NCBI GenBank assembly: GCA_030149525.1
Contig: JASBRJ010000377.1
Span: 1 to 64,000 of the forward strand
Direction of reading: 5' to 3'
Length of the DNA stretch: 64,000 nt
DNA from: a bacterium
GTDB taxonomy: Bacteria; Vulcanimicrobiota; Xenobia; Xenobiales; JADMJV01
The position numbers were made by a program, and so were the translations under genes. The notes below the pieces were generated by a model. The model ran no database searches, was not told the origin of the DNA, and worked only from the letters and a program-made list of their open reading frames with translations. Below, one piece after another: positions 2,929-45,679 of this stretch (position 1 is the stretch's first letter; the number at the start of each line of letters is the position of its first letter).

Positions 2929-3285
2929 GTGGAAATAATGAGGCTAAGACTTTTGAGAATTGCTCTAGAGCAGTATAGAATCGAAGCGAGAGAGATGAAG
3001 ACCCATCAGGAAATAGACGCGCGGAGTCTGAGGCTGGCTCAAGCCGTCGTCGCCAAGATCGATCTCAATCCTGGTCTTCTGCAGAGAGCAAGAGATTGGG
3101 CGGCGCGACAAGAAAGCGTCGGAGTCAAAGAATGGCTTCCCATACTCGAGCAAACCTGGCCCTTCGTTCGAGAGCAACTTCTTGCCCAGGATGAAGAGGG
3201 GCGTCGTTTACGCCAGAATTCACCGTTCGTAGGGATCTTGACACCTCAAGAGCGATGGGCTCTTTACCGGGAGAGCAACACCTGA
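2929..3285 (+). CDS. Small partner protein of DUF6036 nucleotidyltransferase (possible antitoxin)
   Basis: This 118-residue, helical, charged protein ends in a segment like LRQNSPFVGILTPQERW. From memory, that segment is typical of the small gene that accompanies DUF6036 nucleotidyltransferases. Its 3' end overlaps the next gene by 31 bases, which implies translational coupling. Start is GTG 2929; ATG 2938 is an alternative three codons in. There is no signal peptide. By analogy with AbiEi/AbiEii and MenA/MenT pairs the small upstream protein could be an antitoxin or specificity partner, but nothing in the sequence proves it. Confidence 0.75.
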   Translation: MEIMRLRLLRIALEQYRIEAREMKTHQEIDARSLRLAQAVVAKIDLNPGLLQRARDWAARQESVGVKEWLPILEQTWPFVREQLLAQDEEGRRLRQNSPFVGILTPQERWALYRESNT

Positions 3286-3806
3286 AACGCCACCAATTGG
3301 AACACATCCTCCGGGCAGCCGGAAGTATTGCAGACCAGTCTGAGTTTATCATCATCGGGAGTCAAGCTATCCTGGGAACACATCCGGACGCACCCGACTC
3401 TCTGCTGGTTTCGATTGAGGCCGATCTGTACCCTAGGAACAATCCAGAACTGTCTGACCTCATCGACGGCACAATCGGTGAACTTTCTCCGTTCCATCAA
3501 ACGTTCGGCTACTATGGGCACGGTGTTGGCCCGGAAACAGCCGTCTTACCTCGAGATTGGTCCGAACGCTTGACACCTATCTGCAATGAGAATACCTATG
3601 GAGTTACCGGTTGGTGCCTCCATCCCACCGACCTGGCCTATAGCAAACTTGCTGCCGGCCGACCTAAGGATTTGGAATACGTCGGTCAACTCCGACGACA
3701 CGGAATCCTTGACGACCACTTGCTAGAAGAGTGGATTTCATTGGCGGACCAGCCGCTCAAAGATGTCTTGAGAACTCGCCTTGAGATCGTCCGTCGGAAT
3801 CACTGA
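3255..3806 (+). CDS. DUF6036 family nucleotidyltransferase (possible toxin)
   Basis: The 183-residue protein carries the nucleotidyltransferase-fold signature IIIGSQAILG near residues 33-42, followed by an E-x-D carboxylate pair (SIEADLYP, about residues 56-63). It then has the family blocks GELSPFHQTFGYY, GVGPETAVLP and a C-terminal AGRPKDLEYV. These match the DUF6036 family over its whole length. Such enzymes transfer NMP groups; related AbiEii/MenT proteins modify tRNA as toxins. Substrate is unknown here. It overlaps the upstream small gene by 31 bases, so the two act together. It ends 104 bases before the PqqD-fusion gene, which has its own promoter. Confidence 0.85.
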   Translation: MGSLPGEQHLKRHQLEHILRAAGSIADQSEFIIIGSQAILGTHPDAPDSLLVSIEADLYPRNNPELSDLIDGTIGELSPFHQTFGYYGHGVGPETAVLPRDWSERLTPICNENTYGVTGWCLHPTDLAYSKLAAGRPKDLEYVGQLRRHGILDDHLLEEWISLADQPLKDVLRTRLEIVRRNH

Positions 3807-3837
3807 GACTTTCTACACCTTTCACCCCGTTTAAAAA

Positions 3838-3893
3838 TTTGCATTGCAAAGCTTCAACTTTTCCTTTATGATGCAAACTCATAAACTTTGCAT
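3838..3893 (+). promoter_or_regulatory. Promoter with nested TTTGCA/TGCAAA operator-like palindromes
   Basis: A -35-like TTGCAA (3844-3849), a 17-base spacer and a -10 TATGAT (3867-3872) precede the PqqD-fusion gene. The -35 lies inside a perfect 6-1-6 palindrome TTTGCATTGCAAA (3838-3850). Just past the -10, ATGCAAA (3871-3877) and TTTGCAT (3887-3893) form a second inverted repeat with a 9-base gap. Four half-sites around one promoter look like binding sites for a dimeric regulator. No regulator gene adjoins it. Confidence 0.6.
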
Positions 3894-3910
3894 TGAAGAG
3901 TTCTTTTGTC

Positions 3911-4477
3911 ATGAATTACACTGTTTGCGATCACATCTCTCAGCCGCTCGATTCCGGGCTTCTCGTCTACTCCAAAAACGGGAACTCCGTTCATTTCCTT
4001 GAGGAGGAAGCTGCCTTGGTCTGGACACTTGCGTGCTCCACTTCCTGCACGACCCGGCTGAAGAAGTTACTCCCGGAAATGACTCCCCACCAATTGGAAA
4101 AGGTCCTCTTCGAGTTTACCGAGGCGGATCTAATTCGGTTTGAGGAGCCGGGCTTTCCGAGACGTGAGTTTTTGATTCGGAGTGGCGTTGCCGCCACCAC
4201 TCTTGTGTTGTCAGCTTCCTTGCCCGCTTCGGCGCAGAGCGGTTCGGTCACACCTACTGCGACCTGCGGACCGAACTGTGCCATTGCCGGTTGCGCCAGT
4301 GGAGAACAGGTCTGCTTTTATCAAGAGAACGATCCGGCGTTCTGCACCCAATCCAATGTCGATGGTTGTTGCGGACTCTTTGGAGTCACCTTCTCAATGG
4401 TCTGCGCCCCGGGTGCAGGCTCGTGTCCCCCAGCCGACGGGAACAATTCCTTCAGTAGTACCGCAGCCTGTCCTTAA
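3911..4477 (+). CDS. PqqD-like domain fused to Tat-type segment and ten-cysteine tail
   Basis: I chose ATG 3911 (188 residues) because a GAAGAG sequence lies about 9 bases upstream; TTG 3893 overlaps the operator. Residues about 10-78 read as a PqqD-like/RRE fold: an extended SGLLVYSKNGNSVHFL hairpin, an alanine/tryptophan helix, then winged-helix-like helices. Next comes FPRREFLIRSG (twin Arg 84-85), a hydrophobic stretch and a possible cleavage site ASA|QS near residue 108. The remaining 80 residues are Gly/Ser/Thr-rich with ten Cys (119, 123, 128, 135, 145, 153, 154, 165, 172, 187). Known PqqD homologues bind RiPP leader peptides and occur with HprK-like kinases (HPr-rel-A systems). The fusion suggests a leader-binding domain attached to its own exported, cysteine-rich cargo; that is inference. 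The kinase gene follows after 4 bases. Confidence 0.8.
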   Translation: MNYTVCDHISQPLDSGLLVYSKNGNSVHFLEEEAALVWTLACSTSCTTRLKKLLPEMTPHQLEKVLFEFTEADLIRFEEPGFPRREFLIRSGVAATTLVLSASLPASAQSGSVTPTATCGPNCAIAGCASGEQVCFYQENDPAFCTQSNVDGCCGLFGVTFSMVCAPGAGSCPPADGNNSFSSTAACP

Positions 4478-4481
4478 CGCC

Positions 4482-5264
4482 ATGTTTTATCAGATCGGGG
4501 ATTTAAAACTGGAGCTTGTTCGGTGGAACTCGCGAACAGATCGGAGGGTGTGTCTGCCCACACTCTGGGCTGGGGAGAGGTCTCAACATCTGTCGGCCCA
4601 GCTACATCTCCTTTCCAAGTCGGATTATGTGAAGATCGGAGAGTTTCCCACCAGGCCCTTTCAACTGATAGCCACCTCTATCGACAGCTTCGAGTCCAAG
4701 TTGTACCGGTATCTCATCCGCAATCTCAAGCAGTGGACCATGCTCCATTGTGGAGCGGTCAAGATAGGCACGAACGTTTTGCTCTTTCCGGGTTTGAGCG
4801 GGGCCGGTAAGTCAACACTGGTCCAGGCTCTCTGCAATAGAGGGGCCGGATACCTTAGCGATGAGTGGATTTTTGTGGACGACGAAGGGACTCTTTACCC
4901 TTATCCGAGAGCCCTCAAATTGAAGCGCCCCGAGAGACGTGAACTGAGGGAACCGGTGGGGCTAGGAAACCTCACTGCCGTGCATGTTGTGTTCACTACC
5001 TATCAGCCACGCTCCAAGCTGGCCCCGAAACCCGTCAGTCTGTCAGCGGGCTGTCTGGAGTTGTTGCAGAATTGTCCCCAGATACACAACCGATCCCTTC
5101 AAGCTCTCAGCCGGTTGAGCCGCCTCGCAAGACAGAGCCGATTATGGAGAACGCCACGTCCGGAAGCGGAGCAAGCCGCTGAAGAGTTTATGAGACTCTA
5201 TTCGAAAGGAGGCGACGATGCTTCCCCGGCTTGCCTCTCAAAACACCTGAACAGCCAAGCTTGA
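4482..5264 (+). CDS. HPr kinase/phosphorylase-like (HprK-related) ATPase
   Basis: ATG 4482 starts 4 bases after the PqqD-fusion stop; the frame is open further upstream but overlaps that gene. The 260-residue product has HprK-type landmarks: LHCGAV (His89) before the P-loop, Walker A GLSGAGKST at 104-112 and the SDE acidic motif at 126-128 (YLSDEW), then a Pro/Arg-rich segment. It lacks the N-terminal DRTGG-like domain of true HprK. Established knowledge: HprK-related kinases sit beside PqqD-like proteins in HPr-rel-A loci and in lasso-peptide and related RiPP clusters, where the target is not HPr. Here it probably phosphorylates or otherwise activates a peptide or protein of the locus. Confidence 0.8.
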   Translation: MFYQIGDLKLELVRWNSRTDRRVCLPTLWAGERSQHLSAQLHLLSKSDYVKIGEFPTRPFQLIATSIDSFESKLYRYLIRNLKQWTMLHCGAVKIGTNVLLFPGLSGAGKSTLVQALCNRGAGYLSDEWIFVDDEGTLYPYPRALKLKRPERRELREPVGLGNLTAVHVVFTTYQPRSKLAPKPVSLSAGCLELLQNCPQIHNRSLQALSRLSRLARQSRLWRTPRPEAEQAAEEFMRLYSKGGDDASPACLSKHLNSQA

Positions 5265-5277
5265 CCGCCTGGGCTGG

Positions 5278-5964
5278 GTGGATGGACTGTCTTTTTCTCC
5301 TTTTGAAGTCTCTTTCGGAATACGCACCAACGACCCGTCGGTGCTGCCTGAGTTGAGAACCATAATTTCCGATTTGGGGTGGACGGAGCAAAGTCGAGAG
5401 ATCGTGGACGTTCTGTTTTCGCTTTGGGTGGGCCGCCCCAGCCCTCGGGGGAGGCGCACCTATCATCTTCTCTATGGTGGAGCTATCAGAATGGTGAGAT
5501 CCCTGGAGTTAGACGACGTCTTTGTCTTCTTGCGAGGCATACTTCCCGATGTGGCCAGGGCGACCGCAGCAGGATACTGGTTCTTCCCCGGCTCCAAATT
5601 GAGCTTTCAAGGTCGTGACATTGTTCTTCTTCCTCAACCGTGCGAGGCCGATGCCGGTCGATCGGGACACACCCCATACTTTGCTCTAGACAGCCAAGGT
5701 CGGCTTCAGGGAGCATCCGGTCGAGCGGCACCGCTCCTCTTCCTGGTGTCCCAAGCCCCTAATTTCGACCTGCGATCCTGCTCCAAGGGTGAAGCGGGCG
5801 TTCGACTGTTCCAAAGCACCCTGGGACTGAGAGCCCGCCCGGATATTCTTCTCCGAGCCACCTCGGACTTCGTGCAAGCGTCGTCATGTTGGGAGCTTAA
5901 AACGACGTCTTGGGTGGATTTTTGGAACATGACCACAGAGCTTGTTAACAGAAAGTTCACATAA
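5278..5964 (+). CDS. Degenerate HprK-like protein without P-loop
   Basis: The in-frame stop at 5248 limits the start; GTG 5278 is the first usual start codon, 13 bases after the kinase gene. The 228-residue protein follows the layout of HprK-related proteins: an N-terminal SFGIRTNDP...LPEL segment, then LSFQGRDIVLLP (109-119), which in kinases leads directly into the P-loop. Here the next residues are QPCEADAGRSG, with no GxxGxGKST. Downstream PYFALDSQGRL and APLLFLVSQAP match the region after the SDE motif. I infer a pseudokinase, perhaps a substrate-binding or regulatory partner of the upstream kinase. The homology is by eye and moderate; an unrelated conserved protein remains possible. Confidence 0.6.
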   Translation: MDGLSFSPFEVSFGIRTNDPSVLPELRTIISDLGWTEQSREIVDVLFSLWVGRPSPRGRRTYHLLYGGAIRMVRSLELDDVFVFLRGILPDVARATAAGYWFFPGSKLSFQGRDIVLLPQPCEADAGRSGHTPYFALDSQGRLQGASGRAAPLLFLVSQAPNFDLRSCSKGEAGVRLFQSTLGLRARPDILLRATSDFVQASSCWELKTTSWVDFWNMTTELVNRKFT

Positions 5965-6014
5965 AGCTGTGAGTTTTCAAAGATCCCTTGAGAGTTGACA
6001 CCTAAGATAGGTCT

Positions 6015-6269
6015 ATGATTAGCACGGAAAACTCTTCTCCCGCCGCCAACTTCTCCGACTCTCTCATCGACGAAGCATGGCTCCTCGAAGACGAGGTGGA
6101 ACTGACGGTAGAGTGCGAGTCTCAAAATCTTGCTTCAGCGGGTGAAATCGTTGTTGAAGAGGCGACTCTCCACACTCTGCTGACAATGGAAGATTGCAAA
6201 AGTTTCCGTGTTGTCAATTCGAATGGAAGATATGGCTCGAGCAGACGCTTGAGTGTTAACTTCCGATAA
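6015..6269 (+). CDS. Small acidic-to-basic peptide after the HprK-like genes
   Basis: The 84-residue ORF starts at ATG 6015. A TTGACA (5995-6000) sits just upstream but no well-spaced -10 is clear, so the promoter is uncertain. Residues 1-65 are strongly acidic (repeated E/D, for example LLEDEVELTVE) and the last 20 are basic (GRYGSSRRLSVNFR). It has two Cys and no signal peptide. A terminator follows at 6301. An acidic leader plus a basic tail, next to a PqqD/HprK locus, would suit a modified-peptide precursor, but I recognise no family and the call that it is coding is moderate. Confidence 0.45.
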   Translation: MISTENSSPAANFSDSLIDEAWLLEDEVELTVECESQNLASAGEIVVEEATLHTLLTMEDCKSFRVVNSNGRYGSSRRLSVNFR

Positions 6270-6300
6270 TTCGATCCGTACCGAAACCTACTCTCTACCG

Positions 6301-6326
6301 AGCCCTGGCCGCACACCGGGGCTTTT
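6301..6326 (+). terminator. Rho-independent terminator
   Basis: The 8-bp stem AGCCCTGG/CCGGGGCT (one G-T pair) with a 7-base loop CCGCACA is followed by TTTT. It closes the PqqD/HprK locus before the next gene. Confidence 0.7.
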
Positions 6327-8778: not shown

Positions 8779-11505
8779 TTAGAACTTGAGGCTAAAGGAC
8801 GAGGTGATTTGGATGCCTTCCCAGCTGAAAGGGTGAGCAACCTGAGGACCGTTGTTGATGTTTAGAGCAGGTACCGTCGGGTTGTTGAACACGTAAGCGG
8901 GTACGTTGTCTTTAAACTGGAAGAACTTACCGTTGGCACCCCATACGAGGTCTTCGGCGATCTCCCACTCGAAACCGAGCTCAGGCCAGGTCTGGTTGAT
9001 GTCAAGGTTGTTGAAACGAGTGAAACCAACAGCCTCGGCGTATTGACCGTTCACGTTGAAGGGGTCGAAGTGACCTTTGATATCAACGTTGGTGAAGCCG
9101 GCGAAGACGAGAAAGTCTTCGGTGACGTCGTAGTCAACCTGAACGTTCCAGCCGGTGAAGCTGAGGTCTACCAGGTTCTGGTTCTCAGCTTGAGTTCCAG
9201 CACCGGCAAATCCGTTGGCAGCACCGATGGCCATCATGTTCGAGTTGCGATCGAAGTTGAGAGTGCGTAGACCACCCTTAAGGGTAACACCACGGTTGTT
9301 CTCAGCTTCGTTGAGGAGCCACTTGTAACCACCGGAGATGGTGATGCTCTCAACATTACCTTTGTTATCTTCCAGCGGGACAGCAAATGCGTTTCCGTTG
9401 GCAGAAGCAAAAGTAGCAGAGTTGTAGCCGTTGAAGAGCGGCTCAATCCAGCCGGGGCTGAATCCGAGAACAGGAGTGTTCGGAATTCCCGCACCGATGG
9501 AGCTGGGAGAGAAACGAACATCCTGCAGAGAGCTGGTCTTCTGATCGAGGTTTCCGTACTCGACACTGATTCGACCCGTGGGCAAGAACTTCCAGGTACC
9601 CTTCAAACGGTATCCTTCACGGTTGTGAGGAAGCTCGTTCACGTTGTGCATAGAGTACATGTTCTGGAAGTAGAAGAACCCGGGAGTCTTCCACTGAGGG
9701 GTACTGATACCGGCCACAGTCGGAGTTTCGATAATGAACGGCGAGAACCTAGGATCTACCGAGAGGTACTCTGCGCTCAGATCGACGGTGGCATCGAACA
9801 GGAGGACGTTGGCGCCGACCTTCCAAGCATCTCCATCCGCTGTGTAGGGGGAGTTCTTGTTGGGACGGTAGCTGGAGGTCGCCCATTCACCGTAGATCTT
9901 AGGAGACCAGTCGTGGTCGAAGGTGTACTCGAAGGAGAGGCCCCATGTGCTTTGCTGCTGAGGACCGATGCCACCTACGTTAGGAACACCTTGAGGAAGC
10001 AGACCGGCTGCTACCGCCGCTGCCAGTGAACCGTCGTTTCCGCCGAAAGCGGGGTTGGGGTTCATAGGAGTGGGGCGAACATCCGAGGTCGAACCTTGAC
10101 CGGCTGTGGCACCGAAAGTACCTGCCAGTTGGCCTTGATAGTATCCGTTGGGGTTAACCCACTGGAGCTGACGGCTCAGGTTCGGTACGGTAATAAGACC
10201 TACAGTGAGAGGTCCACCGCCGCTTGCTTCGTCGGCAGCGCGCAGGAAGTTCAGGTTGATCTTACCGCGCTCTTCGTGGAAGTCGAAACCGACTTTGCCG
10301 CCCAGGATATAGGAGGCATAGCTGGTACCGAGTCCGGGAGTTCCCGGGGTGATTGGTCCGTTGGAACCGTCGGGGAGAAGAGAGCCCATCGCCTGCCAGG
10401 AGATGTGCATATCTTCCTCTTCGTCGATGGCGAATTTGCCTTCAACGAGGAAACCGTAGTTCTGCAGGTATTCAGGGCCAAACTCGTTGGGGTTCTGAAG
10501 ACCGACGAAAACGGAGTCATTGAATCTATGCTCGTCGTAGGCACCCACAATGAGTCGGGTTCCGGAGTCGATGTGTCGAACCCAGAAACGCTCGAGATTC
10601 ATTCGAGTGTACGGCGTGTGACCAAGCCCCTGGGCTAGACCGGCAGCGTTTTCATTGGCTGTGGTGAAGGGGTTGGCCAGGTAAGGCTGCTGAACGCCGT
10701 AGTAAGCGTCGACCGCAGCATCACCTTGTGAGGAGTAGGCGGAAAACTCTACTCCAGCATCGATCTCGTTTGAAACGCGGATATTCATTCCCAAAATAGC
10801 CTTGGTAGTGAATCCGGTACCGCTAGTGAGTGGACGACCGGTTCTCCAGTTTGTGGTGGAGAGTACACCCGTGGTGAACGGGTTGAAGGTCGGTACTACT
10901 GCGGTTTGTCCGGGGGGTAGAATGGCGCCCAGAGGGCCCGTTCCACCAAATCCGACGGTAGAACCACCGGCACCGGCGGCGCTACCTGCGACCGCGTTAT
11001 AGTTGAGTGTATCGAATGCAATTCCGGGGTTGAGAGACCGCATGGAATCTCTTCCGGTGTTATAGAAGCTTTGGAAAGCCACTCGAGTGTCAAGGGAACC
11101 ATAGAAGCTAATACGTTCGAGCTCAGTGACTCGTTGATCGAGCCGCCCTACGTTTTCTTCCAGATTATCAACTCGAACTCCCAGAGCATCAAGCTCTTCG
11201 CGCAGGGCATTTGCGAGTTTGCGCAACTCATCAAGCTCGGCCTTCGTCGCAAATGTCGCGTGGGCTTGTTCCATCTTCGAGAGAAGACGTGCAACAATCA
11301 TTGCAGTCTCCCAGCGAGAGGCGGAACGGTCCCCCTTGAACGTCCCGTCGGGATAACCCTCGACGAGACCCTTTGCGGCGAGAGCGGCTACCGCATCCTT
11401 AGCCCAGTGGTTATCTGGGACATCGGGAAAAAGCGGAGCCGCGAAGGCAGGCCAACTGAGTGCATAACAGAGCGTCGTCAAAACCAGATATTTGAAGCGC
11501 TTCAT
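8779..11505 (-). CDS. SLH-domain outer-membrane porin (copy 1)
   Basis: The 908-residue protein starts with an AGGAGG site 8 bases before its ATG and a Sec signal ending in AFA-APL. Residues about 25-72 form an SLH domain (FPDVPDNHWAKDAV, then GYPDGTFKGDR), residues about 78-135 a coiled coil, and the rest a long beta-barrel region rich in alternating aromatic/polar strands. It ends in Phe, as expected for BamA substrates. Such porins tether the outer membrane to the cell wall through the SLH domain in diderm Terrabacteria. A paralogue lies upstream at 12304-14889. The first 130 residues are nearly identical in protein but differ at many third codon positions, so the copies are not recently duplicated. 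Confidence 0.92.
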   Translation of the reverse strand: MKRFKYLVLTTLCYALSWPAFAAPLFPDVPDNHWAKDAVAALAAKGLVEGYPDGTFKGDRSASRWETAMIVARLLSKMEQAHATFATKAELDELRKLANALREELDALGVRVDNLEENVGRLDQRVTELERISFYGSLDTRVAFQSFYNTGRDSMRSLNPGIAFDTLNYNAVAGSAAGAGGSTVGFGGTGPLGAILPPGQTAVVPTFNPFTTGVLSTTNWRTGRPLTSGTGFTTKAILGMNIRVSNEIDAGVEFSAYSSQGDAAVDAYYGVQQPYLANPFTTANENAAGLAQGLGHTPYTRMNLERFWVRHIDSGTRLIVGAYDEHRFNDSVFVGLQNPNEFGPEYLQNYGFLVEGKFAIDEEEDMHISWQAMGSLLPDGSNGPITPGTPGLGTSYASYILGGKVGFDFHEERGKINLNFLRAADEASGGGPLTVGLITVPNLSRQLQWVNPNGYYQGQLAGTFGATAGQGSTSDVRPTPMNPNPAFGGNDGSLAAAVAAGLLPQGVPNVGGIGPQQQSTWGLSFEYTFDHDWSPKIYGEWATSSYRPNKNSPYTADGDAWKVGANVLLFDATVDLSAEYLSVDPRFSPFIIETPTVAGISTPQWKTPGFFYFQNMYSMHNVNELPHNREGYRLKGTWKFLPTGRISVEYGNLDQKTSSLQDVRFSPSSIGAGIPNTPVLGFSPGWIEPLFNGYNSATFASANGNAFAVPLEDNKGNVESITISGGYKWLLNEAENNRGVTLKGGLRTLNFDRNSNMMAIGAANGFAGAGTQAENQNLVDLSFTGWNVQVDYDVTEDFLVFAGFTNVDIKGHFDPFNVNGQYAEAVGFTRFNNLDINQTWPELGFEWEIAEDLVWGANGKFFQFKDNVPAYVFNNPTVPALNINNGPQVAHPFSWEGIQITSSFSLKF

Positions 11506-12303: not shown

Positions 12304-14889
12304 TTAGAACTTGAGTTTGAATTGGGTGGTCACTTGTACACCGCTGTACTCGAAAGGATTCTGGGTGAATCCGATCGCGTCGGTGGTGAGGGTGGTACCG
12401 TTGTTCAAGTTCGACGAGGTATCGAAGTAACGCAGGTCCATGTTCCAAGTGGTGTTTTCGCTAACATCGTAGTCGAAACCGATGAACGGGATGAATTGAT
12501 CCTGGTCAACAGTGTCGAAGTTAGTGGATCCGGTCTGAACAGCAAAGCTGTTGTAGAGACCGGAAGGATCGTAGTGACCCTGAATGGTGACGTAGTCGGC
12601 ACCACCGCGGAGCGTCCACTTGTCGCTAGCTTCCCAGGCGAGTTCACCGTGGATGCTGTCGATGTTCAGGTCGATGTTGTTCTGCGAACCACCGAAACCG
12701 GGGGCCAGACCAGAACGACGCTCGTACTCGTTGCGCTCGTAGCCGAGGTCAACTTTGATGCGAGGGTCATCGAACTTGTAGGTTACGCCGAAAGCGTAGT
12801 TGTTGTGCGAACCGGAGGGATTCTCCAGGGGCGCCAGGTTAGCGGTGAACGAGTTAGCAGAACCGGCTCCGTAAACGGAGGGGTGTGCGAACCCGGTGAA
12901 CACAGGGTCGATGAAACCAGGTGCGTGACCGATAACGGCGTTGGTAGGAGTAGCCAGTCCGAGTGCACCGGGGGTGACGCGAACATTGTAGAGGCTGGTA
13001 TCCTTCTGGTCGAGGAATCCGAGTTTACCCCAAACAGCACCGCGACGCTCGTTGAATCTCCAAGTACCTTTGAGACGGAAACCTTCACGGTTGTGAGGGT
13101 ACTTCTCAGTGTCGTGCAAGGAGTACAATCCGCTGAAGTAGTGGATGTTGGGGAAACGCTGAACGCCTACACCGGCAGGGTATCTGAGGATGAAGGGGTC
13201 GTAGGTGGAATCCACGCTGACGTATTCACCAGCCAGGTCCAGGTCTCCGTCGAGGAGGTTCACGCCAACACCGATGCGGAATGCATCGCCGTCTACATCG
13301 TAACCGGAGTTACGGTTAGGACGGTAGTTAGAGTGGCCGTACTCGCCGTCGATTCGGATCTGGTCGCCTTCGCCGATGTCGAAAGCGTAAGCTCCGCTGA
13401 AGCCCCACAGGTCCATGCTCTGAGCACCGAAGCTACCACCGACGAATGCGTCGTTGAGAGCGTTAGCACCGGAGATAGGACGGTTGTCGGTGGTGCTTCC
13501 AGGGCCGTTTCTGGCTTGCTGGAAAGCGGTTTGCTGAGCGGCGTAGAAACCAGGAGGGTTAACCCACTGAAGGGGTGCCCAACCGGCAGCAGCTCCGGTA
13601 CCCTGCAAGGCCGCAGGGTTGCCTGGGAAGGCAGCGCCCAGGCCATTTCCAGCGAAGTTGGCACCAGCACCGGAGGTGATGTTACCGGTCTGGAGAGTTC
13701 CGCCGCTGAAAGAGTCTTCCATTACGCGAGCGTAGTTACCCTTAACGAATCCGCCTTCGAATTCGAGAGCTACGTCACCACCGAAGAGCCAAGGCTCGTA
13801 ACCGCTGTTGAGGTAGCCGGCGGTAGGAAGACGAGTTCCCATAACTTCCCAGTGCAGTACGCCCCAGTCAGATACATCGACCTGACCGGTTACGTCGAAA
13901 CCGTAGCTGGAGTTGAACTCAGGACCGAAAGCGTTGGGGTTGAACTGACCGGCATACAGGATGTTGTCCATCTTGTCTTCCGAGAAAGTACCAACAACGA
14001 GCTTGGTCTTCGAAGGGTTGTGAATAACCCAGAAGTTGTCCAAGTTCATTCTGGTGAAAGGCTGATTGTTCAGGCCTTGAATGCCAGGGTCTTGGTTGTT
14101 CGCAGTGAACGGGTTGCTCAGGAAAGGCTGCTGCACACCGTAGTATGCATCAACGAAAGCATCACCCTGAGAAGTGTACGCCGAGAACTCAGCACCAGCA
14201 TCGATGTCATCGCTGACACGGATGCGCAGACCGAGGAGAGCGCGCGAGGTGAAACCGGTTCCGTTGGTTAGAGGACGACCGTTGCGGTAGTCCATAACGG
14301 GCCATACACCGTTGTTCTGAGGGGTGAGAGCCGCACCAGCAGCGGAACCTACAAGGTTATTGTAGTTCAAGAAACCAGGTCCGGGTACGGTGGCGTTACC
14401 GCCGCCGAAGCGCAGACCGTCGTTGTCGAGACGTCCGTTGTTGCTGAACGACTGGAATGCAGCGCGAGCTTCAACTTCGCCGTAGAAAGTGATTCTTTCC
14501 AGCTCAGTTACGCGCTTGTCGATGCGGGCAACGTTTTCTTCGAGATTGGTAACGCGTACGCCGAGAGCGTCGAGTTCCTCACGAAGAGCGTTTACGAGCT
14601 TACGCAGCTCATCCAGTTCCGCTTTGGTAGCGAAAGTGGCGTGGGCTTGTTCCATTTTGGAGAGCAAGCGAGCGACGATCATCGCGGTTTCCCAACGGGT
14701 AGCAGCGCGGTCGCCTTTGAATGTTCCGTCCGGGTAACCTTCGACGAGACCTTTAGCAGCCAGAGCAGCTACAGCGTCTTTCGCCCAGTGGTTATCGGGA
14801 ACGTCGGGGAATAGTGGAGCTGCGAGTGCAGGAACCACCATTGAGAACATGAGCATTGATGCAAGAATTGACCAAATGCGTTTCTTCAT
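12304..14889 (-). CDS. SLH-domain outer-membrane porin (copy 2)
   Basis: The 861-residue paralogue of the 8779-11505 protein has a signal peptide (cleavage near ALA-APL), an SLH domain at about 25-72, a coiled coil at about 78-135, and a beta barrel ending in FKLKF. Start ATG 14889 has AAAGG 8 bases upstream. A clear promoter (15048-15076) leaves a leader of about 150 bases. The barrels diverge strongly between the two copies while the SLH/coiled-coil anchor is conserved, which suggests different solute or surface specificity on one wall-anchoring module. Confidence 0.92.
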   Translation of the reverse strand: MKKRIWSILASMLMFSMVVPALAAPLFPDVPDNHWAKDAVAALAAKGLVEGYPDGTFKGDRAATRWETAMIVARLLSKMEQAHATFATKAELDELRKLVNALREELDALGVRVTNLEENVARIDKRVTELERITFYGEVEARAAFQSFSNNGRLDNDGLRFGGGNATVPGPGFLNYNNLVGSAAGAALTPQNNGVWPVMDYRNGRPLTNGTGFTSRALLGLRIRVSDDIDAGAEFSAYTSQGDAFVDAYYGVQQPFLSNPFTANNQDPGIQGLNNQPFTRMNLDNFWVIHNPSKTKLVVGTFSEDKMDNILYAGQFNPNAFGPEFNSSYGFDVTGQVDVSDWGVLHWEVMGTRLPTAGYLNSGYEPWLFGGDVALEFEGGFVKGNYARVMEDSFSGGTLQTGNITSGAGANFAGNGLGAAFPGNPAALQGTGAAAGWAPLQWVNPPGFYAAQQTAFQQARNGPGSTTDNRPISGANALNDAFVGGSFGAQSMDLWGFSGAYAFDIGEGDQIRIDGEYGHSNYRPNRNSGYDVDGDAFRIGVGVNLLDGDLDLAGEYVSVDSTYDPFILRYPAGVGVQRFPNIHYFSGLYSLHDTEKYPHNREGFRLKGTWRFNERRGAVWGKLGFLDQKDTSLYNVRVTPGALGLATPTNAVIGHAPGFIDPVFTGFAHPSVYGAGSANSFTANLAPLENPSGSHNNYAFGVTYKFDDPRIKVDLGYERNEYERRSGLAPGFGGSQNNIDLNIDSIHGELAWEASDKWTLRGGADYVTIQGHYDPSGLYNSFAVQTGSTNFDTVDQDQFIPFIGFDYDVSENTTWNMDLRYFDTSSNLNNGTTLTTDAIGFTQNPFEYSGVQVTTQFKLKF

Positions 14890-37167: not shown

Positions 37168-37282
37168 ACCTGACACACCCGAAGTCAACCTCCCGCCTCC
37201 TGCGCTTAAGCGGTCTTTAGAGGCATAGGACAAATGTCACAGCTAGCCAATACCTGAGAACTGCAAATCCAAGGAGCCCGTG

Positions 37283-40200
37283 ATGCGTAGTCTCACCAGG
37301 AATCGCCTTTTTAAAAAGAACCCTTTCAAGAAAGCCCTCGCTGCGACGGTTATGTCGGCGGCGCTGATGACGGGGTCGCTTGCCAACCCTTCCGGCCCGG
37401 TGGTCCGGAACGGACAGGTCAACATTTCCGGCCTGGGAGGCGCCCAACTCCAGATTGAGCAGCTAACCAACAAAGCCATCGTCAATTGGGATTCCTTTTC
37501 CATCGGAGCAGGCGAAGCAGTTCGCTTCCTCCAGCCTTCGCAGATGGCCCTTATTCTCAATCGCGTAACCGGCCAAGACCCGTCCCAGATTCTGGGGTCC
37601 CTGTCGGCGAACGGCCAGGTTTTTCTGATCAATCCGAACGGTATCTTGTTCGGACCCGGCTCTCAGGTGAACGTGGGCAGCCTGGTTGCCTCCTCTCTAC
37701 AGATCACCGATCAGGATTTCCTCAACGGAAACTACAACTTTACCCAGGATGCAAGCAAAGAGCTTGCCTCGGTTATCAACCAGGGCACCATTCGAGTTTC
37801 CGACGGGGGCTACGCCGTTCTCACAGCGCCTCTCGTCTCCAACGAAGGCCTGATCGTGGCCAATCTGGGCAAAGTGGTTCTCGCCGGTGGAGAGCAAACC
37901 ACTCTGAACTTCGACGGTCGCGACCTCATCAATTTCGAAGTGGGCGCCCTCCCCGGTGAAGCCGGAACCGTGGTTCTCCCCCGGGAAGCAGTTGGGGGAA
38001 TCCTGGCCGACATGCTGGGGGCCGAAGATAGGGCCGGACAATTGATCCGCCGAGAAGACGGAACCCTGGCCCTGGAGGGTGGAAGTGGAACCGTCTATCA
38101 GGCCGGAACCATTCGTGCCGACGGCTCTACCGGCGAAAAAGCGGGTTCGGTTGTTATCGACTCGACGCGCCTCACTGTATTAGGTGAGAACTCCGTGACG
38201 GCTGCCGACGGGGTGGGTCAAAACTCCGAGGGCGGAGAGGTTCTGGCTCTTTCCAACCTGAGCACCGGGACCACCGTGGGATACGCGGGCTCTCATCTCT
38301 CGGCTCAAGGTGGGGAGAGTGGAGACGGAGGATTCATTGAGTTCTCAGGGTCGAAGTTTTCTCTCGGTTCGAGTATCGATGCAACGGCCCAAAACGGCAC
38401 CATGGGAACTTTCTTGCTCGACCCCCGCGACATTTTCGTGATCGACGGGCCTTCCGGTGCGAGTCCCTTGCCGGGACCGCCGGCACCAGCCGACCTCACG
38501 ATAAACGACGGGACCATTGAGACGCTTTTAGCCGGAGCTCAAGTCACTCTACAAGCCGATCGCAACATCGATTTTGCCAACGGGGTATCCATCAACGTAC
38601 CCACCGGCAATTTCATCGCGCTCGCCGATGCCGACAATAACAATAACGGCACGGTGACCGTCAATCAGGCCACTATCAATGTCAACAGCTTGGAACTCAC
38701 AGGCAATGGAATCTTCCTGAATAGCAATCACTCCATCACGGCCAATACGGCCGTATTGACGGGTCGAAACTTCGTTGAAGCGGACTCGACGGGTGCAACG
38801 CTCAACGTCACCAATCTCGGGTTGGTTGGCAGCAGCATCCGCGGCTCCGGTGCCAGCGACATCATCTCGCTCAACGCCACGAACCTTGCCATCCAACAGG
38901 ACGCGGGAAGCTTCTACCTTTTTCTCAACGACACAGGCGGCGGCCTGAATATCGTCAACTCCATCACCGGCCTCACCCAAACCGCCACCACCGGCGGCAC
39001 TCCTTCAGAGTTCGACATCACTGCCTCCGGTGGCGGGGATCTCACCATCGGAACGGCTCTTTCCGGAAATTTCGGCTACATTCGCGCCGACGGAAACGTC
39101 ACTCTTCAAGCGGACCTGAACATCACCGATCAATTTCTGATCATTGCCGACAACGACAACAACGGTGTTGGCGGCATCATCCAAACTGCAGGCACCGTGA
39201 CCACCGATGCACTCGGACTCTCCGCCGGATTAAACGGGATCGGCTCTGCGGGCGCTTTAACCAACGGCCTTCAGGTGAACACCCGGGAACTAGCCATTGG
39301 ACTTCCCACAGGAGGCTTGCCCAGAATCAACAGGGTTGGCAATGTCAACGTCGTGGATACAGCCGGTGGTGTGACAATTGTGGACAGTGTCGATGCCAGC
39401 GGAGAGGTTCTGGACAGCTTGACCGTCAACGGAAACTTTAGCACCGGCTCTATGCAGGTCACCGCCCGTGGCGGCGACACGGCGAATCTCACCGTTGCGG
39501 GAGCCATCGACAGCGTGGGAACGAACCTTGAACTTTCCGCCGACAACGACGTTATCTTCGATCCTATGGTGACAGCCACTGTCACAGGGAGCGCGATTAT
39601 TAGAGCCGACCTGGACAACAATAACGACGGAACTATCACTTTCAGCGACGGAAGCGCCAACTCTCACATCTCAGCCCAAAATCTAGGTCTTGCCTTGAGC
39701 GAGAACTTCGGCACGGCGGGCGCCTTCCAATCGGTGGAATACAATATCTTCACTGTGGACGCCGATCCTAACGGCGACGGCACGGGAGGCACGGTGTTCG
39801 TCAACGATTCCGGCGGAGATTTTACCATCGGTTCGGTGAGTGGCCCCAACCAGACGATCTCCAATCTTCGAGGCGCCGGAGACACTGTGGCTCAAGCCGA
39901 TGGAGGCAACCTCCTTTTGAACGCCCCGGCAAGCTCAAGCACCGGTGACGTCCATTTGGCAGCCGTCGGCAATGTCGCGCTCGGGGCCAATGTGAGCGCC
40001 GCTACAGGCCAGGAAGCTCTCGTTCGAGCCAACACGGGAACCGGCAGCATCACTCAGACAAGCGGAAGCATAACCGGTCAGACCGTCGGGCTTCTGGCTC
40101 AGAATGTGGGAACCAATACCCGCTCCATCAATATCAACGCCGACAATCTGGTGGTGAACGGTGGAGGCAGCATTTACGTCAGCGAAGCCGATAGTGTCAA

Positions 40201-43200
40201 CCTCATTGCCGATATCACCGCCGCAGGGTCCACTTTCAACCAATCTCCCCTGAGCGCAGGCGGAGACTTCAGAGTTTTTGCCAACAACAATCTCAACGTC
40301 AATAATCAGGTTCAGGGAACTGATGTCTCCCTGATCGCCAACACCGGCAATTTAGCCGTCAACCAAAATGTCACCGCCACCGGGAATGCTGTGCTCTCGG
40401 CCGGAGGCAACATCAGCGGGACGGGAACCGTCACTGCCCCTAACCTGGGACTCGACGCTGCCAACATCGGTGCCGCCGGTGCCAATCTGATGATCGATGC
40501 CGACAATTTGGCCGTGGACTCCGAAGCAAACGCCTTTGTCCAGGATTCCGATGACGTCACGCTAGTCAACCAGGTCACTTCCACCTCCTTCAATCCCGGG
40601 ATAGGCGGCGGAGGGGGAGACGTGGTGACGGGGAACGATGCCACCGGCGACTTCGCCCTTCTCGCCGGCGGAAACATCACCGTCAACGACACCGTGACGG
40701 GTGGCGATACGGTTCTTCGAACAACGGGCGGCAATATCGTGATCAATCAGGGAGTGGGCGACGCAGGCACGGTGGACACCGTTCTTTCCGCCAGCGGCAC
40801 CATCACAGGCTCCGGAACCGTCACCTCTCAAAATCTCGGCCTCTCGGGCTCCACCATCGGAACCAGTGGGGCCAACCCGTTGTCTATAGCCACAAACAAT
40901 GTCAGTGTCCTGGCCACAGGGAGCGCTTTTCTTTCCGACCCCAACGACCTAACCATGATTAACCAGGTCCAGGCCACAGCCAACAACGACACGGTCACAG
41001 GCAACCAGGTTGGGCAGCAGTTGAGCGTCGTGGCCGGTAACAACCTCACTGTGGCCGACGATGTCAGATCGAACTCCGGCGCGGGGATCTTGGAGTTCGT
41101 GGCTACCAACAACGTCAGCTTTACCAACAACGCCGGAGATGCCGCCGACGCCACAGTCCCTCCCGACGACGGTCGCATTATCGTGGTGGCCCAAAACGGC
41201 AGTATTTCCCAGGAGCAAGGCGGATTGCTCAACGCCCGAACTATCGGCCTGAGAGCGGGAACCGACATCGGCACCAGCGGCGGCGGAACCGACAACAACG
41301 CCATCGATCTGGTCGCCGATAGGGTGGCCGTGGTGGCCGGACGGCACGCCAATGTGCTGGACACCAGCGCCAATCTCAGCACCTCCGCCGGTGTCGCCGG
41401 GATCACCCAGAACGTGGCAGGCTTTAGTACCGGAGGGAACCTTGAACTGGAGGTGGCCGCCGGTGCGCTCGACCACTCTTCGGGAACCATCACCGTAGGC
41501 GGCAACGCCGATGTGGTGGCCAACAACACCATAACGCTCGCCACTCCTATCAACATCACCGGCAACGGCGTCTTCACCAGCACCAACGGAGACGTTCTCG
41601 CCTCTCCAGGGGCAGGACAGGTGATCTCCGCCGATCAACTCGGCTTCAACGGCCGTAATATCGGCGAAGACATCGGTGCCGTCTCGCCTCTCCAAGTGAG
41701 TGCAAACAGTGTTGCCTACAACGCCACCGGTCAGGTTTTCTTAAGAGACAACGTGGGCGATCTTCAACTGGTCGCGAGTGTCACCGGCGTCGACGAGACT
41801 GCCAACGGTGCCACCTCCGGCAATCAGACATCGATAGAAGCTCAGAACGGCAATCTCACCGTCGCCACCAACGTGGTGAACAACAACGCGGGTGCAACAG
41901 GTATTGATCTCATCGCCCAGGGCAATGTGGCCCTCAACGGTTCGGTCTCCAACACCAACGGCAACGTGGTTGTGGTGGCCGATTCCAACAATAGCGGCAC
42001 TGGAGCCATCAGCCAGGGGGCCGGGCAGTCTGTCAACGCCGTGGGGGTCGGGCTCACTGCAGGCAACGGTGGGATCGGCACCCCGGGTGCCGACAGCAAC
42101 GCTGTTGCGATCAACGCCACCAATCTTTCTCTTGAGACCTCGGGAAGCGCCAATGTTCGGGACACGGCCGGCGGACTGACTCTCGTGAACAACGTGACCG
42201 GCTTCAACAGATCGGTCACGGGAACCACTCTCAACGGCAGCCTTGAACTTGAAGCCAACGGCGGCGACGGAGCAACTCTCACCATCGCCGACGACATCAC
42301 AGGAGTCACCAACGCCGACCTGGTGGCCGACGACGACGTCATCATCAACAACGCCTTGACCGCTTCAGGGAACGTGGTCGTTCGAGCCGACAACGACAGC
42401 AATAACAACGGTGGCATTACCAATACCGGAAGCATTACCTCGGCGGGCCTGGGACTTGCCGCAGCCGAAAATATCGACAACGGCGCGGGTGGACCGCTGC
42501 TGGTGAACGTGGACAATTTTGCCGGGGTGAGTACCGGCGGCAATGTGAACGTTCAGGATCAGTCGGGCACCCTGACCATCGCGAACGTCACCGGTGTAGA
42601 TGAAAGCGTTAACGGAGCTCAGGCCGCCACCGATCTCGCTATTCGGGCCAACGGCACCGATCTGACTCTGAACGCTCCCGCCACGGCCGGGCGGAACATC
42701 GATCTGGTGGCCAACCAGAACGTCAACTTGAACGCCAACGTCAACTCGACCGGCGGGACCGGCACCGTGGTCATTGCGGCCGACGCCGACGGAGCGGGTG
42801 GCGTGGGCTCCATAACTCAGACCGAGGGAAACGCCATCACCGGTAATCGGGTGGGACTGTCGGCTCAAAACGACATCGGCGGAGTTGGAGCGGGCGATAT
42901 TGAGACCAACGCCAACGAGATTGTTATTGAAACGGCCGCAAGCGCCTACGTGGACAACGCAGGCGCCGTTAGAATCGTCGATTCGGCGGCAGGTCAACTC
43001 TTCACTGTCACCGGGAATGTGGCGGCCAACGACTATCGTCTCGGCGCCGGGGGACAGATCACGGTCGACGATGCTGTCCAGGCCCTCGACATCGCACTGG
43101 TCACGACATCCGGCGGCATTGTGGTCAACCAAAACGTGGGAGGAGACACTCAGGACGTTGTGCTGTCCACCCCGGGTGACATCACGGGCGACGGCGTCGT

Positions 43201-45679
43201 CGGGGCCGTGAACGTGGGGTTGAGAGGAAACAACATCGGCACCTCGGCCAACTCCTTCGATGTGCGAGCGCAAAATCTCGCCGTAAACTCAACCCGCAAC
43301 TCCTACGTGAACGATCCCGACTCCATCACCATTGTCGATTCGGTGACGGCCACAGGCGTGAACGATATGGTGACCGGCAACCTGGCGGCAGGGGATTATC
43401 GCGTGTCGGCAGGCGGCGCCATCACCGTGAACGACGGAATCAACGGTAACGACGTGAGTCTGGTGACAACCAACGGCACCATCACCGCCAACCAGACCAT
43501 TATCAGCACTCAGGATTTGGTCCTCAACGCCGGTGGAGCAGGTCAGAGTATTCTCCAGGGAGGCGGCACACTGGTGGGTCAAAACATCGGCCTGCAAGCC
43601 GCCAATCAGATCTCTGCCACCACCCTTAATGAAGAGCTCTCTATCAACGCCACCAATCTGGTGGCCAATGCCGGCAATGTCCTCATTGTCGATACCGCAG
43701 GCGGAGTCAACATCGCCACAAGCGTCACCTCGACCGCTGTGGGCGATACCGTGAACTCCAACGGCGGGAACAACTTCAGAGTGATAGCCAACGGCGGAAG
43801 CTTAGGGATAGGCGGTTCCGTCGGCGCCACCAACGCGCTCCAACTCTTAGCCGACAACGATATCAATCAGAACGCCAATATCACGGCCCAAACAGCTATT
43901 TTGAAGGCCGATAACAACAACGACGGCAGCGGCGCCTTGACCCAGACCCAAGGCAATAGCATAACAGCTGATGCCGTGGGGCTTTCGGCAGGCGACGGCG
44001 GCATAGGAACAGCCGGGTCCGACATCAACGCCTTCGATATCTTGGCCGACACCCTCACCCTCGAAACCAGTGGCAACGCCAACGTCTTAGACAGTGCCGG
44101 TGGACTGAGTGTGGTGAACTCCACCGCCGCCACGACGAACGCTCTCCCTGGAGAGACCGTCACCGGAAATACCGTCGGCGGCTCTCTGGAAATTAAGACC
44201 ACCGGAGGCAACGCGGCTGCTCTGAACATACAATCCAATGTTCAGATCGGGACCAATGGGGAACTGGTAGCCGACGACGACATCGTGGTGGGCGGCAATA
44301 TCACCGCCACCGGCAGCCTTGTTTTAAAGGCCGACAACGACCAGAACGACAACGGCGGAATCAATCGCAACCCCCAAAGTCCTGCCGTCGTTACCGCCAC
44401 CAACCTCGGCCTGCAATCTTCCGAAAATATCGGCGACCCCAACGGAACGGCTCTTGAGGTGAACGTTACAACGCTTGCCGTCGACACCGACCCCAACACA
44501 AATCAGGTGGGTGGGGGAGTCAATATCGTGGACAACAACGGCGATCTCATTCTGGGAACTGTCACGGGTGTCAACGAATCCGTCGCCGTGGCCAGATCCG
44601 CCGGGAGTCTCAAGATACAGGCAACCAATGGAAATCTCAATGTGGGCATTCCTGTCACCTCGGGACAGGAAACCGAACTGGGAGCGTCAGGCGATCTCAA
44701 TCTCAGCTCCAATGTCAACGCGGGAGGCAACTTCGTCGCCAACGCCGGGCGCAATATCAATCAAACCGGCAACATCTCGTCCGGAGGCGATGTGGCCCTT
44801 CAGGCAACCGGGAACATCTCTCTGGGTGGAAGCGTTCAAGCGACCAATGGAAACACCGTTGTCGTAGCGGGCGGCAATCTGACCGTGCCGTCTGGAACCG
44901 CCGTATCCGGCAGAACACTGAACCAGGTCGGAAATCCGACCATCACCACCAATCAATTAGGAATTCAGGCCGGTACCGATGCGGGCTCTCTCGCCAATCC
45001 GGTTCTCTTCAATGCCGGTAGCCTCACCTACAACGTGGGCAACAACATCATCGCCGAGGACACGGCAGGCGGCGTTACCCTTGTGAATCAGGTCGTCGCT
45101 GCCGGCACAACGGTCAACGGTCTCACAGCCGGCAACGACTCTCGAATCGTGGCCAATAACGGTGATCTCACCGTCAACGCCACCTCCACCATCGGAGGCG
45201 ACGGCGAACTGGTCACCAAAGGCAGCGGCAATATCGTGGTCAATCAAGACTACACGGCAGCCACCGGCAACGTGGTTCTTCGGTCGGCCGGTGATATTTC
45301 GGGAAGCGGCTCCATCACGGCCAGAGGTCTCGGAATCGACGCTCCTAACGGAACAGCGGGCACCAACGCAAACCCTTTGAGCATCAACGCCGACACTCTT
45401 ACCGTAGGGTCCCGACCGTTTGCCGTGAGGCCACAGAAAGTGTTCCAGCGAGCTCCCGAGGTGACGGCCATTGTAGAGACGGTCAAGGACGTGGGTGTGA
45501 TTGTCGTCCCCGGTCAGCCCAATAATCCTCTGGTTATCGACGGAAACGTCTTCGCCCAGGACAACGTGGGATTGGTGGAGGCGGTGCTGGAAGAAGCCCT
45601 GGACAACTACGATCTGATTTACAACGAAACCGGCTGGCAAGTCTTAGAAGACGACGGATTCGGGACGAACAGGAGATAA
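37283..45679 (+). CDS. Giant filamentous-haemagglutinin-type exoprotein
   Basis: ATG 37283 has AGGAG 6 bases upstream. The 2,798-residue protein has a signal region (basic N-terminus, then ATVMSAALMTGSLA). Its TPS secretion domain at about 35-260 includes the diagnostic NPNGILFGPGSQVNVG. Beyond residue about 400 it is built from roughly ten to fourteen degenerate repeats of 120-180 residues, each with an ADNDNN-like Asp/Asn turn, LGL.A..NIG, and VxDTAGGxTIVNSV, consistent with a long beta-helix. TpsA proteins are exported by a TpsB/FhaC barrel and act in adhesion or contact-dependent functions; no tpsB is in the window. The C-terminus (AVRPQKVFQRAPEV onward) is not repetitive. Base composition follows the repeats. 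Confidence 0.92.
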   Translation: MRSLTRNRLFKKNPFKKALAATVMSAALMTGSLANPSGPVVRNGQVNISGLGGAQLQIEQLTNKAIVNWDSFSIGAGEAVRFLQPSQMALILNRVTGQDPSQILGSLSANGQVFLINPNGILFGPGSQVNVGSLVASSLQITDQDFLNGNYNFTQDASKELASVINQGTIRVSDGGYAVLTAPLVSNEGLIVANLGKVVLAGGEQTTLNFDGRDLINFEVGALPGEAGTVVLPREAVGGILADMLGAEDRAGQLIRREDGTLALEGGSGTVYQAGTIRADGSTGEKAGSVVIDSTRLTVLGENSVTAADGVGQNSEGGEVLALSNLSTGTTVGYAGSHLSAQGGESGDGGFIEFSGSKFSLGSSIDATAQNGTMGTFLLDPRDIFVIDGPSGASPLPGPPAPADLTINDGTIETLLAGAQVTLQADRNIDFANGVSINVPTGNFIALADADNNNNGTVTVNQATINVNSLELTGNGIFLNSNHSITANTAVLTGRNFVEADSTGATLNVTNLGLVGSSIRGSGASDIISLNATNLAIQQDAGSFYLFLNDTGGGLNIVNSITGLTQTATTGGTPSEFDITASGGGDLTIGTALSGNFGYIRADGNVTLQADLNITDQFLIIADNDNNGVGGIIQTAGTVTTDALGLSAGLNGIGSAGALTNGLQVNTRELAIGLPTGGLPRINRVGNVNVVDTAGGVTIVDSVDASGEVLDSLTVNGNFSTGSMQVTARGGDTANLTVAGAIDSVGTNLELSADNDVIFDPMVTATVTGSAIIRADLDNNNDGTITFSDGSANSHISAQNLGLALSENFGTAGAFQSVEYNIFTVDADPNGDGTGGTVFVNDSGGDFTIGSVSGPNQTISNLRGAGDTVAQADGGNLLLNAPASSSTGDVHLAAVGNVALGANVSAATGQEALVRANTGTGSITQTSGSITGQTVGLLAQNVGTNTRSININADNLVVNGGGSIYVSEADSVNLIADITAAGSTFNQSPLSAGGDFRVFANNNLNVNNQVQGTDVSLIANTGNLAVNQNVTATGNAVLSAGGNISGTGTVTAPNLGLDAANIGAAGANLMIDADNLAVDSEANAFVQDSDDVTLVNQVTSTSFNPGIGGGGGDVVTGNDATGDFALLAGGNITVNDTVTGGDTVLRTTGGNIVINQGVGDAGTVDTVLSASGTITGSGTVTSQNLGLSGSTIGTSGANPLSIATNNVSVLATGSAFLSDPNDLTMINQVQATANNDTVTGNQVGQQLSVVAGNNLTVADDVRSNSGAGILEFVATNNVSFTNNAGDAADATVPPDDGRIIVVAQNGSISQEQGGLLNARTIGLRAGTDIGTSGGGTDNNAIDLVADRVAVVAGRHANVLDTSANLSTSAGVAGITQNVAGFSTGGNLELEVAAGALDHSSGTITVGGNADVVANNTITLATPINITGNGVFTSTNGDVLASPGAGQVISADQLGFNGRNIGEDIGAVSPLQVSANSVAYNATGQVFLRDNVGDLQLVASVTGVDETANGATSGNQTSIEAQNGNLTVATNVVNNNAGATGIDLIAQGNVALNGSVSNTNGNVVVVADSNNSGTGAISQGAGQSVNAVGVGLTAGNGGIGTPGADSNAVAINATNLSLETSGSANVRDTAGGLTLVNNVTGFNRSVTGTTLNGSLELEANGGDGATLTIADDITGVTNADLVADDDVIINNALTASGNVVVRADNDSNNNGGITNTGSITSAGLGLAAAENIDNGAGGPLLVNVDNFAGVSTGGNVNVQDQSGTLTIANVTGVDESVNGAQAATDLAIRANGTDLTLNAPATAGRNIDLVANQNVNLNANVNSTGGTGTVVIAADADGAGGVGSITQTEGNAITGNRVGLSAQNDIGGVGAGDIETNANEIVIETAASAYVDNAGAVRIVDSAAGQLFTVTGNVAANDYRLGAGGQITVDDAVQALDIALVTTSGGIVVNQNVGGDTQDVVLSTPGDITGDGVVGAVNVGLRGNNIGTSANSFDVRAQNLAVNSTRNSYVNDPDSITIVDSVTATGVNDMVTGNLAAGDYRVSAGGAITVNDGINGNDVSLVTTNGTITANQTIISTQDLVLNAGGAGQSILQGGGTLVGQNIGLQAANQISATTLNEELSINATNLVANAGNVLIVDTAGGVNIATSVTSTAVGDTVNSNGGNNFRVIANGGSLGIGGSVGATNALQLLADNDINQNANITAQTAILKADNNNDGSGALTQTQGNSITADAVGLSAGDGGIGTAGSDINAFDILADTLTLETSGNANVLDSAGGLSVVNSTAATTNALPGETVTGNTVGGSLEIKTTGGNAAALNIQSNVQIGTNGELVADDDIVVGGNITATGSLVLKADNDQNDNGGINRNPQSPAVVTATNLGLQSSENIGDPNGTALEVNVTTLAVDTDPNTNQVGGGVNIVDNNGDLILGTVTGVNESVAVARSAGSLKIQATNGNLNVGIPVTSGQETELGASGDLNLSSNVNAGGNFVANAGRNINQTGNISSGGDVALQATGNISLGGSVQATNGNTVVVAGGNLTVPSGTAVSGRTLNQVGNPTITTNQLGIQAGTDAGSLANPVLFNAGSLTYNVGNNIIAEDTAGGVTLVNQVVAAGTTVNGLTAGNDSRIVANNGDLTVNATSTIGGDGELVTKGSGNIVVNQDYTAATGNVVLRSAGDISGSGSITARGLGIDAPNGTAGTNANPLSINADTLTVGSRPFAVRPQKVFQRAPEVTAIVETVKDVGVIVVPGQPNNPLVIDGNVFAQDNVGLVEAVLEEALDNYDLIYNETGWQVLEDDGFGTNRR

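Follow-up and report, generated by a model that had tools for sequence, protein, structure and literature searches.

Domains of the RRE type (the recognition elements of ribosomally made, modified peptides) are known as separate proteins or joined to modifying enzymes. In the HPr-rel-A loci, a chaperone of the PqqD family (TIGR04353) goes together with an HprK-like kinase (TIGR04352), and the product of such HprK/PqqD cassettes was unknown. What, then, might a kinase of this kind be acting on? We take up that question from one locus, at positions 3838–6269 of a 64,000-nucleotide stretch of a bacterial contig (JASBRJ010000377.1, Vulcanimicrobiota; the whole stretch is called the window below), where a PqqD-like domain, a twin-arginine translocation (Tat) signal and a Cys-rich cargo lie in a single chain, g1, just ahead of an HprK-like kinase, g2. 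Chains of this layout are called fusions here.

Like HPr-rel-A, the locus links an HprK-like kinase to a PqqD-like protein, and TIGR04352 is the best NCBIfam match of the kinases and TIGR04353 the commonest PqqD-model match of the fusions. Unlike HPr-rel-A, its PqqD domain continues into a Tat signal and cargo, fusion copies can exceed 40 per genome, and scores fall below the equivalog cut-offs (55 versus 200 bits for g2, at most 27 versus 35 for the PqqD part). Exported Cys-rich products are familiar from elsewhere. The small subunit of methylamine dehydrogenase, which goes with MauE/MauD, is exported and disulfide-rich, as the fusion product is predicted to be, and MauE genes stand beside fusions; we know of no PqqD domain in MauA, and the fusion cargo has no MauA sequence match in Pfam. 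Bufferins are Sec-exported Cys-rich peptides with DUF692/MNIO enzymes, and they share with the fusions (for which export is predicted) a Cys-rich ribosomal product and an RRE-type partner; here, in contrast, the route is Tat and not Sec, the enzyme is HprK-like and not MNIO, and the RRE is in cis. The lasso-peptide systems with kinases (PadeK, ThcoK, BsfK), a discrete RRE B1 and PsmN likewise combine an HPr-kinase homologue, a PqqD-like RRE and a nucleotidyltransferase, and the His, P-loop Lys and Asp of their kinases are retained here. In those systems, HPr-kinase homologues phosphorylate a Ser of the lasso precursor, with a discrete PqqD-like RRE accelerating BsfK (PMC10368454), and the nucleotidyltransferase-like PsmN has been linked to hexose addition on phospho-Ser (PMC9266682). 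Our locus differs in having the RRE in cis with the substrate, a Tat signal, and SDE for Asp-Asp; neither a lasso B2 protease nor a C cyclase appeared among the six locus genes scanned, some neighbours lying outside that scan.

The locus is laid out as follows:

3829..3902, forward strand: promoter/operator region; the direct repeat TTTGCATTG stands at 3838 and 3887 and an inverted ATGCAAA at 3871, overlying a -35/-10-like pair (3844–3872)
3911..4477, forward strand: g1, PqqD-like domain (about residues 6–78), twin-arginine signal (RR 84–85, cleavage near residue 107) and ten-Cys cargo
4482..5264, forward strand: g2, HprK-like kinase with intact Walker A (GLSGAGKS), His89 and an SDE motif
5278..5964, forward strand: g3, HprK-family relative without a P-loop, probable pseudokinase, start codon uncertain
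6015..6269, forward strand: g4, 84-residue open reading frame (ORF) with an acidic N-terminal half and a basic end, an orphan whose membership is unsupported
6300..6324, forward strand: intrinsic terminator-like hairpin

The g1 chain runs to 188 residues. RR stands at 84–85, followed by a hydrophobic stretch and an ASA-QS cleavage region, and the part beyond the signal has ten Cys; that domain, signal and cargo share one chain, as the first-pass annotation had proposed, is borne out. The PqqD fold it assigned to g1 stands with a qualification. Neither Pfam PqqD (PF05402) nor TIGR04353 matches g1 itself, and relatives reach at most 27.2 bits on the latter (cut-off 35), but several homologues score above the PF05402 gathering cut-off, which secures the assignment by homology. 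The predicted fold has the βββ-ααα order of RREs (strands 8–31, then helices 32–75), in a model whose mean confidence (predicted local distance difference test) is 70–84 at residues 11–40 and lower afterwards. The top six Foldseek matches to that model are lasso B1 RREs, at E-values above 0.1 that are not significant alone, and in a profile search of PDB sequences the leading matches were TbiB1 and two PqqD proteins (E 0.01–0.17).

For the kinase g2, a TIGR04352 match at E 5.7e-15 (55.2 bits, below the 200-bit equivalog cut-off; relatives score 45–57) and a start at 4482, four bases past the g1 stop, sustain its pairing with the fusion, and the catalytic set is kept (H89, K110, S111, and D127 E128, with Walker A GLSGAGKS). 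Of the two family models named at first pass, TIGR04352 thus finds its protein, below cut-off, and TIGR04353 does not. As for g3, which had been called a P-loop-less HprK relative, it gives no direct match to a profile hidden Markov model and its fold model was of unusable quality, but iterated profile search places it in the g2 family; the P-loop Lys is gone, and P-loop and acidic pair are both lost. The g2/g3 family recurs beside fusions, with some members keeping the P-loop and others, like g3, lacking it, and intact and degenerate copies often stand in tandem.

How widely is the layout kept? Our surveys drew mostly on metagenome-assembled genomes (MAGs) with crude ORF calls. A protein search turned up diverged fusions both elsewhere in this genome and in related ones, a profile search of the window's class gave up to six fusion matches per genome, and scans of public genomes and plasmids added Acidobacteriota, one MAG labelled Armatimonadetes and one plasmid fusion in Gemmatirosa (Gemmatimonadota); viral contigs gave no relatives. 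In one acidobacterial order, the fusion is present in 52 of 61 genomes, against at least 15 of 199 in a phylum-wide draw at a stricter threshold, so the fusion is concentrated in particular lineages. The extremes are a Pyrinomonadaceae MAG, G058 (loci L060 and L115–L144), with 44 matches, 42 of them at E 1e-15, and genome G093 with 37. The observation first made at 3838–6269 is confirmed and, with the fusion recurring across many genomes, lies far beyond chance; retention in relatives holds for the window's class, Acidobacteriota and Gemmatimonadota. The fusions make up a large and apparently undescribed family, spread over several phyla, of predicted exported proteins that carry their own tag. 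In the open-access literature searched, no paper combines PqqD, twin-arginine and HprK and none names HPr-rel-A, and the passages of two RRE surveys that we consulted make no mention of the layout. The earlier account is in part upheld; family size and spread, cargoes without Cys and the third partner described below are absent from it.

The payloads are mostly Cys-rich, and others are lectin-like, Gly-rich or YfbK/vWA. Cys number is even in 116 of the 117 tails having at least four Cys (a count whose p-value ignores relatedness), so the Cys are probably disulfide-paired, and MauE genes adjoin fusions in two lineages; together these suggest ordinary disulfides, and the unusual crosslinks floated at first pass are not needed. 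The YfbK/vWA cargo rides on PqqD-Tat in two phyla (L008:4910-6850 and L114:2-1819), both in the window's own family and in Acidobacteriota, and the SUEL-lectin-like domain was seen at E 0.0016, which is below cut-off. That lectin-like cargo occurs at L051:9021-9713, L048, L010 and L041, several of them beside a P-loop-less HprK relative. Two fusions (L045:8350-9330, L047:9540-10553) carry some 100 extra N-terminal residues resembling a second PqqD-like domain.

What the fusions have in common lies further forward. TIGR01409 (TAT_signal) gives g1 11.4 bits against a cut-off of 16.7, and RR is present in 127 of 129 fusion-family matches; with an RR motif, a hydrophobic stretch, an AxA site and a TatC encoded by the host, g1 is a predicted Tat substrate. 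A consensus from 84 non-redundant members (picked for having RR, hence RR 100%) continues past RR with G (86%), LP (P 90%), S (77%), AP (P 99%) and A (88%). Two residues past the probable -1 Ala, S/T stands in 95% (Ser 88%, Thr 7%), and Ser occupies that position in 12% of a small, crude control set of 34 secreted ORFs from the same DNA. This conserved Ser just past the cleavage site (A-x-S) is the best candidate for an acceptor independent of cargo.

The kinase-fusion linkage recurs in the neighbourhood survey as well. Among the 61 genomes of the acidobacterial order, 50 have both a fusion and an HprK-like gene, 8 have neither and 2 + 1 are discordant (Fisher p 1.3e-7, a value that ignores relatedness); of the 59 HprK-like genes there, at least 47 have a fusion no more than 1 kb away (42 of them on the same strand), the median gap being 80 bases. 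A third partner, an NTP_transf_5 nucleotidyltransferase, is recurrent. Twelve single-copy acidobacterial loci run in the order glycosyltransferases, WecA-like, HprK-like, PqqD-Tat-Cys, NTP_transf_5-type, the last of these present in 11 (immediately following in 10, close by in one) and not seen in one; one such gene was checked by Pfam, the others by similarity. The single HprK-like gene of G058 overlaps an NTP_transf_5-type gene, apart from the fusions, and such a gene directly follows the lone HprK-like gene in both G058 and G119; genes resembling the heptose kinase/adenylyltransferase HldE, identified by eye (L193–L195), precede the HprK-like gene in G058, G093 and G119, genomes in which fusions are numerous. 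In the window's class, NTP_transf_5 occurs in exactly nine genomes, those with HprK-like genes, and beside several fusions.

Around these genes, the operator-rich promoter and the closing terminator described at first pass have counterparts in the TTTGCATTG repeats over the -35/-10-like pair and the terminator-like hairpin at 6300–6324. The TTTGCATTG repeat occurs twice in the window, at 3838 and 3887 only, and five fusion genes elsewhere in the genome do not show it. By contrast g4, counted earlier as a fourth member, is an orphan ORF not supported as a member, having no significant relatives in nine genomes searched. The DUF6036 gene and the 118-residue ORF upstream were also considered as locus parts; nothing related to them lies near other fusion loci, and they are probably a separate unit. 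At 2929–3806, the DUF6036 nucleotidyltransferase (PF19502) and a small upstream ORF overlap, possibly as a toxin-antitoxin-like pair. Elsewhere the window holds an 895-residue repeat-rich ORF at 123–2810 (no Pfam match, a Cys-rich zinc-ribbon-like motif at its end), tandem SLH-type outer-surface proteins at 8779–11505 and 12304–14889 (the second confirmed by PF00395) and, at 37280–45679, an ORF of 2799 residues with no Pfam match.

How might the pieces work together? We lean, if only slightly, toward a reading in which the PqqD domain serves in cis as a tag common to these proteins: it would call in the HprK-like kinase, in many cases together with NTP_transf_5, and so bring about the modification of a cargo that leaves by Tat. 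The PqqD-like, RRE-fold domain would remain on the cytoplasmic side, recruit g2 and, in many genomes, the nucleotidyltransferase, and present its own chain to both before export. Their likeliest modification of the attached chain would be phosphorylation of a Ser/Thr that might then be nucleotidylated or glycosylated, a chemistry that we infer from the analogy with lasso-peptide kinases; the cargo would leave through Tat, signal peptidase would cut, and the Cys would pair as disulfides. In this reading g3, taken to be catalytically dead, would probably aid binding or regulation. One or two HprK-like genes coexist with 37–44 fusions of differing cargo (G058, G093), so what a kinase would most likely grasp in all of them is the PqqD-Tat module that they share, and the self-presenting layout suggested at first pass fits these acidobacterial data. 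Several facts pull the other way. Some genomes have more fusions than kinases, with fusions far from any kinase, and two (G062, G118) have a fusion and no HprK-like gene that we could find; the window locus has no adjoining NTP_transf_5, five lying elsewhere in the genome; the kinase family has SDE (Glu128 in g2) where lasso kinases have Asp-Asp; outside the signal region, the cargoes share no obvious acceptor motif; and the p-values for co-occurrence and even Cys counts ignore relatedness. A bolder version is one we offer tentatively and would not expect to hold in full: a modular export-modification system in which the cis RRE-Tat tag marks up to dozens of diverse proteins per cell, and a single pair of HprK-like kinase and NTP_transf_5 phosphorylates, then nucleotidylates or glycosylates, the conserved Ser at the mature N terminus.

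Could the domain serve export itself? Conserved N-modules on diverse cargoes, with the most conserved residues sitting in the signal (LP, SS, AP), are also what one would see if the PqqD-like domain acted in cis as a chaperone or gate for Tat, much as if a proofreading chaperone had been joined to its client. It would keep hold of the signal while the cargo was not yet ready, and the kinase would switch it by phosphorylating domain or signal and not cargo. That account leaves the NTP_transf_5 partner and the glycan-gene neighbours unexplained, and PqqD folds are familiar as the parts of modification systems that bind peptides; we think it unlikely. Those neighbours point to another possibility, that the substrate of the HprK-like and NTP_transf_5 proteins is a glycan or something else belonging to a polysaccharide locus, with the fusion merely co-regulated or serving as a surface-glycan acceptor, its Cys-rich protein a surface-anchored structural piece. 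All 12 single-copy acidobacterial loci have a WecA-like transferase gene in the cluster immediately ahead of the HprK-like gene; this, the glycosyltransferases upstream and the HldE-like genes in three genomes fit it, but the window locus showed no neighbours of this sort, and neighbours vary by lineage while the kinase-fusion link stays, which makes it, in our judgment, decidedly improbable. Finally, the direct Pfam PqqD and TAT scores of g1, both below cut-offs, would suit an ordinary Tat protein with a chance winged-helix-like N-terminal extension and unrelated neighbours, a view that the surveys contradict, since the same architecture, RR and kinase linkage occur in several phyla, and to which we give almost no credence.

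What the shared-tag reading starts from is a layout in which a Tat signal links an RRE-type domain directly to the predicted exported product, repeatedly, in several phyla, and on Cys-rich, lectin-like, Gly-rich and vWA cargo. With it, the HprK/PqqD cassettes gain a concrete family of candidate substrates, and the question of what their kinases act on becomes directly testable.
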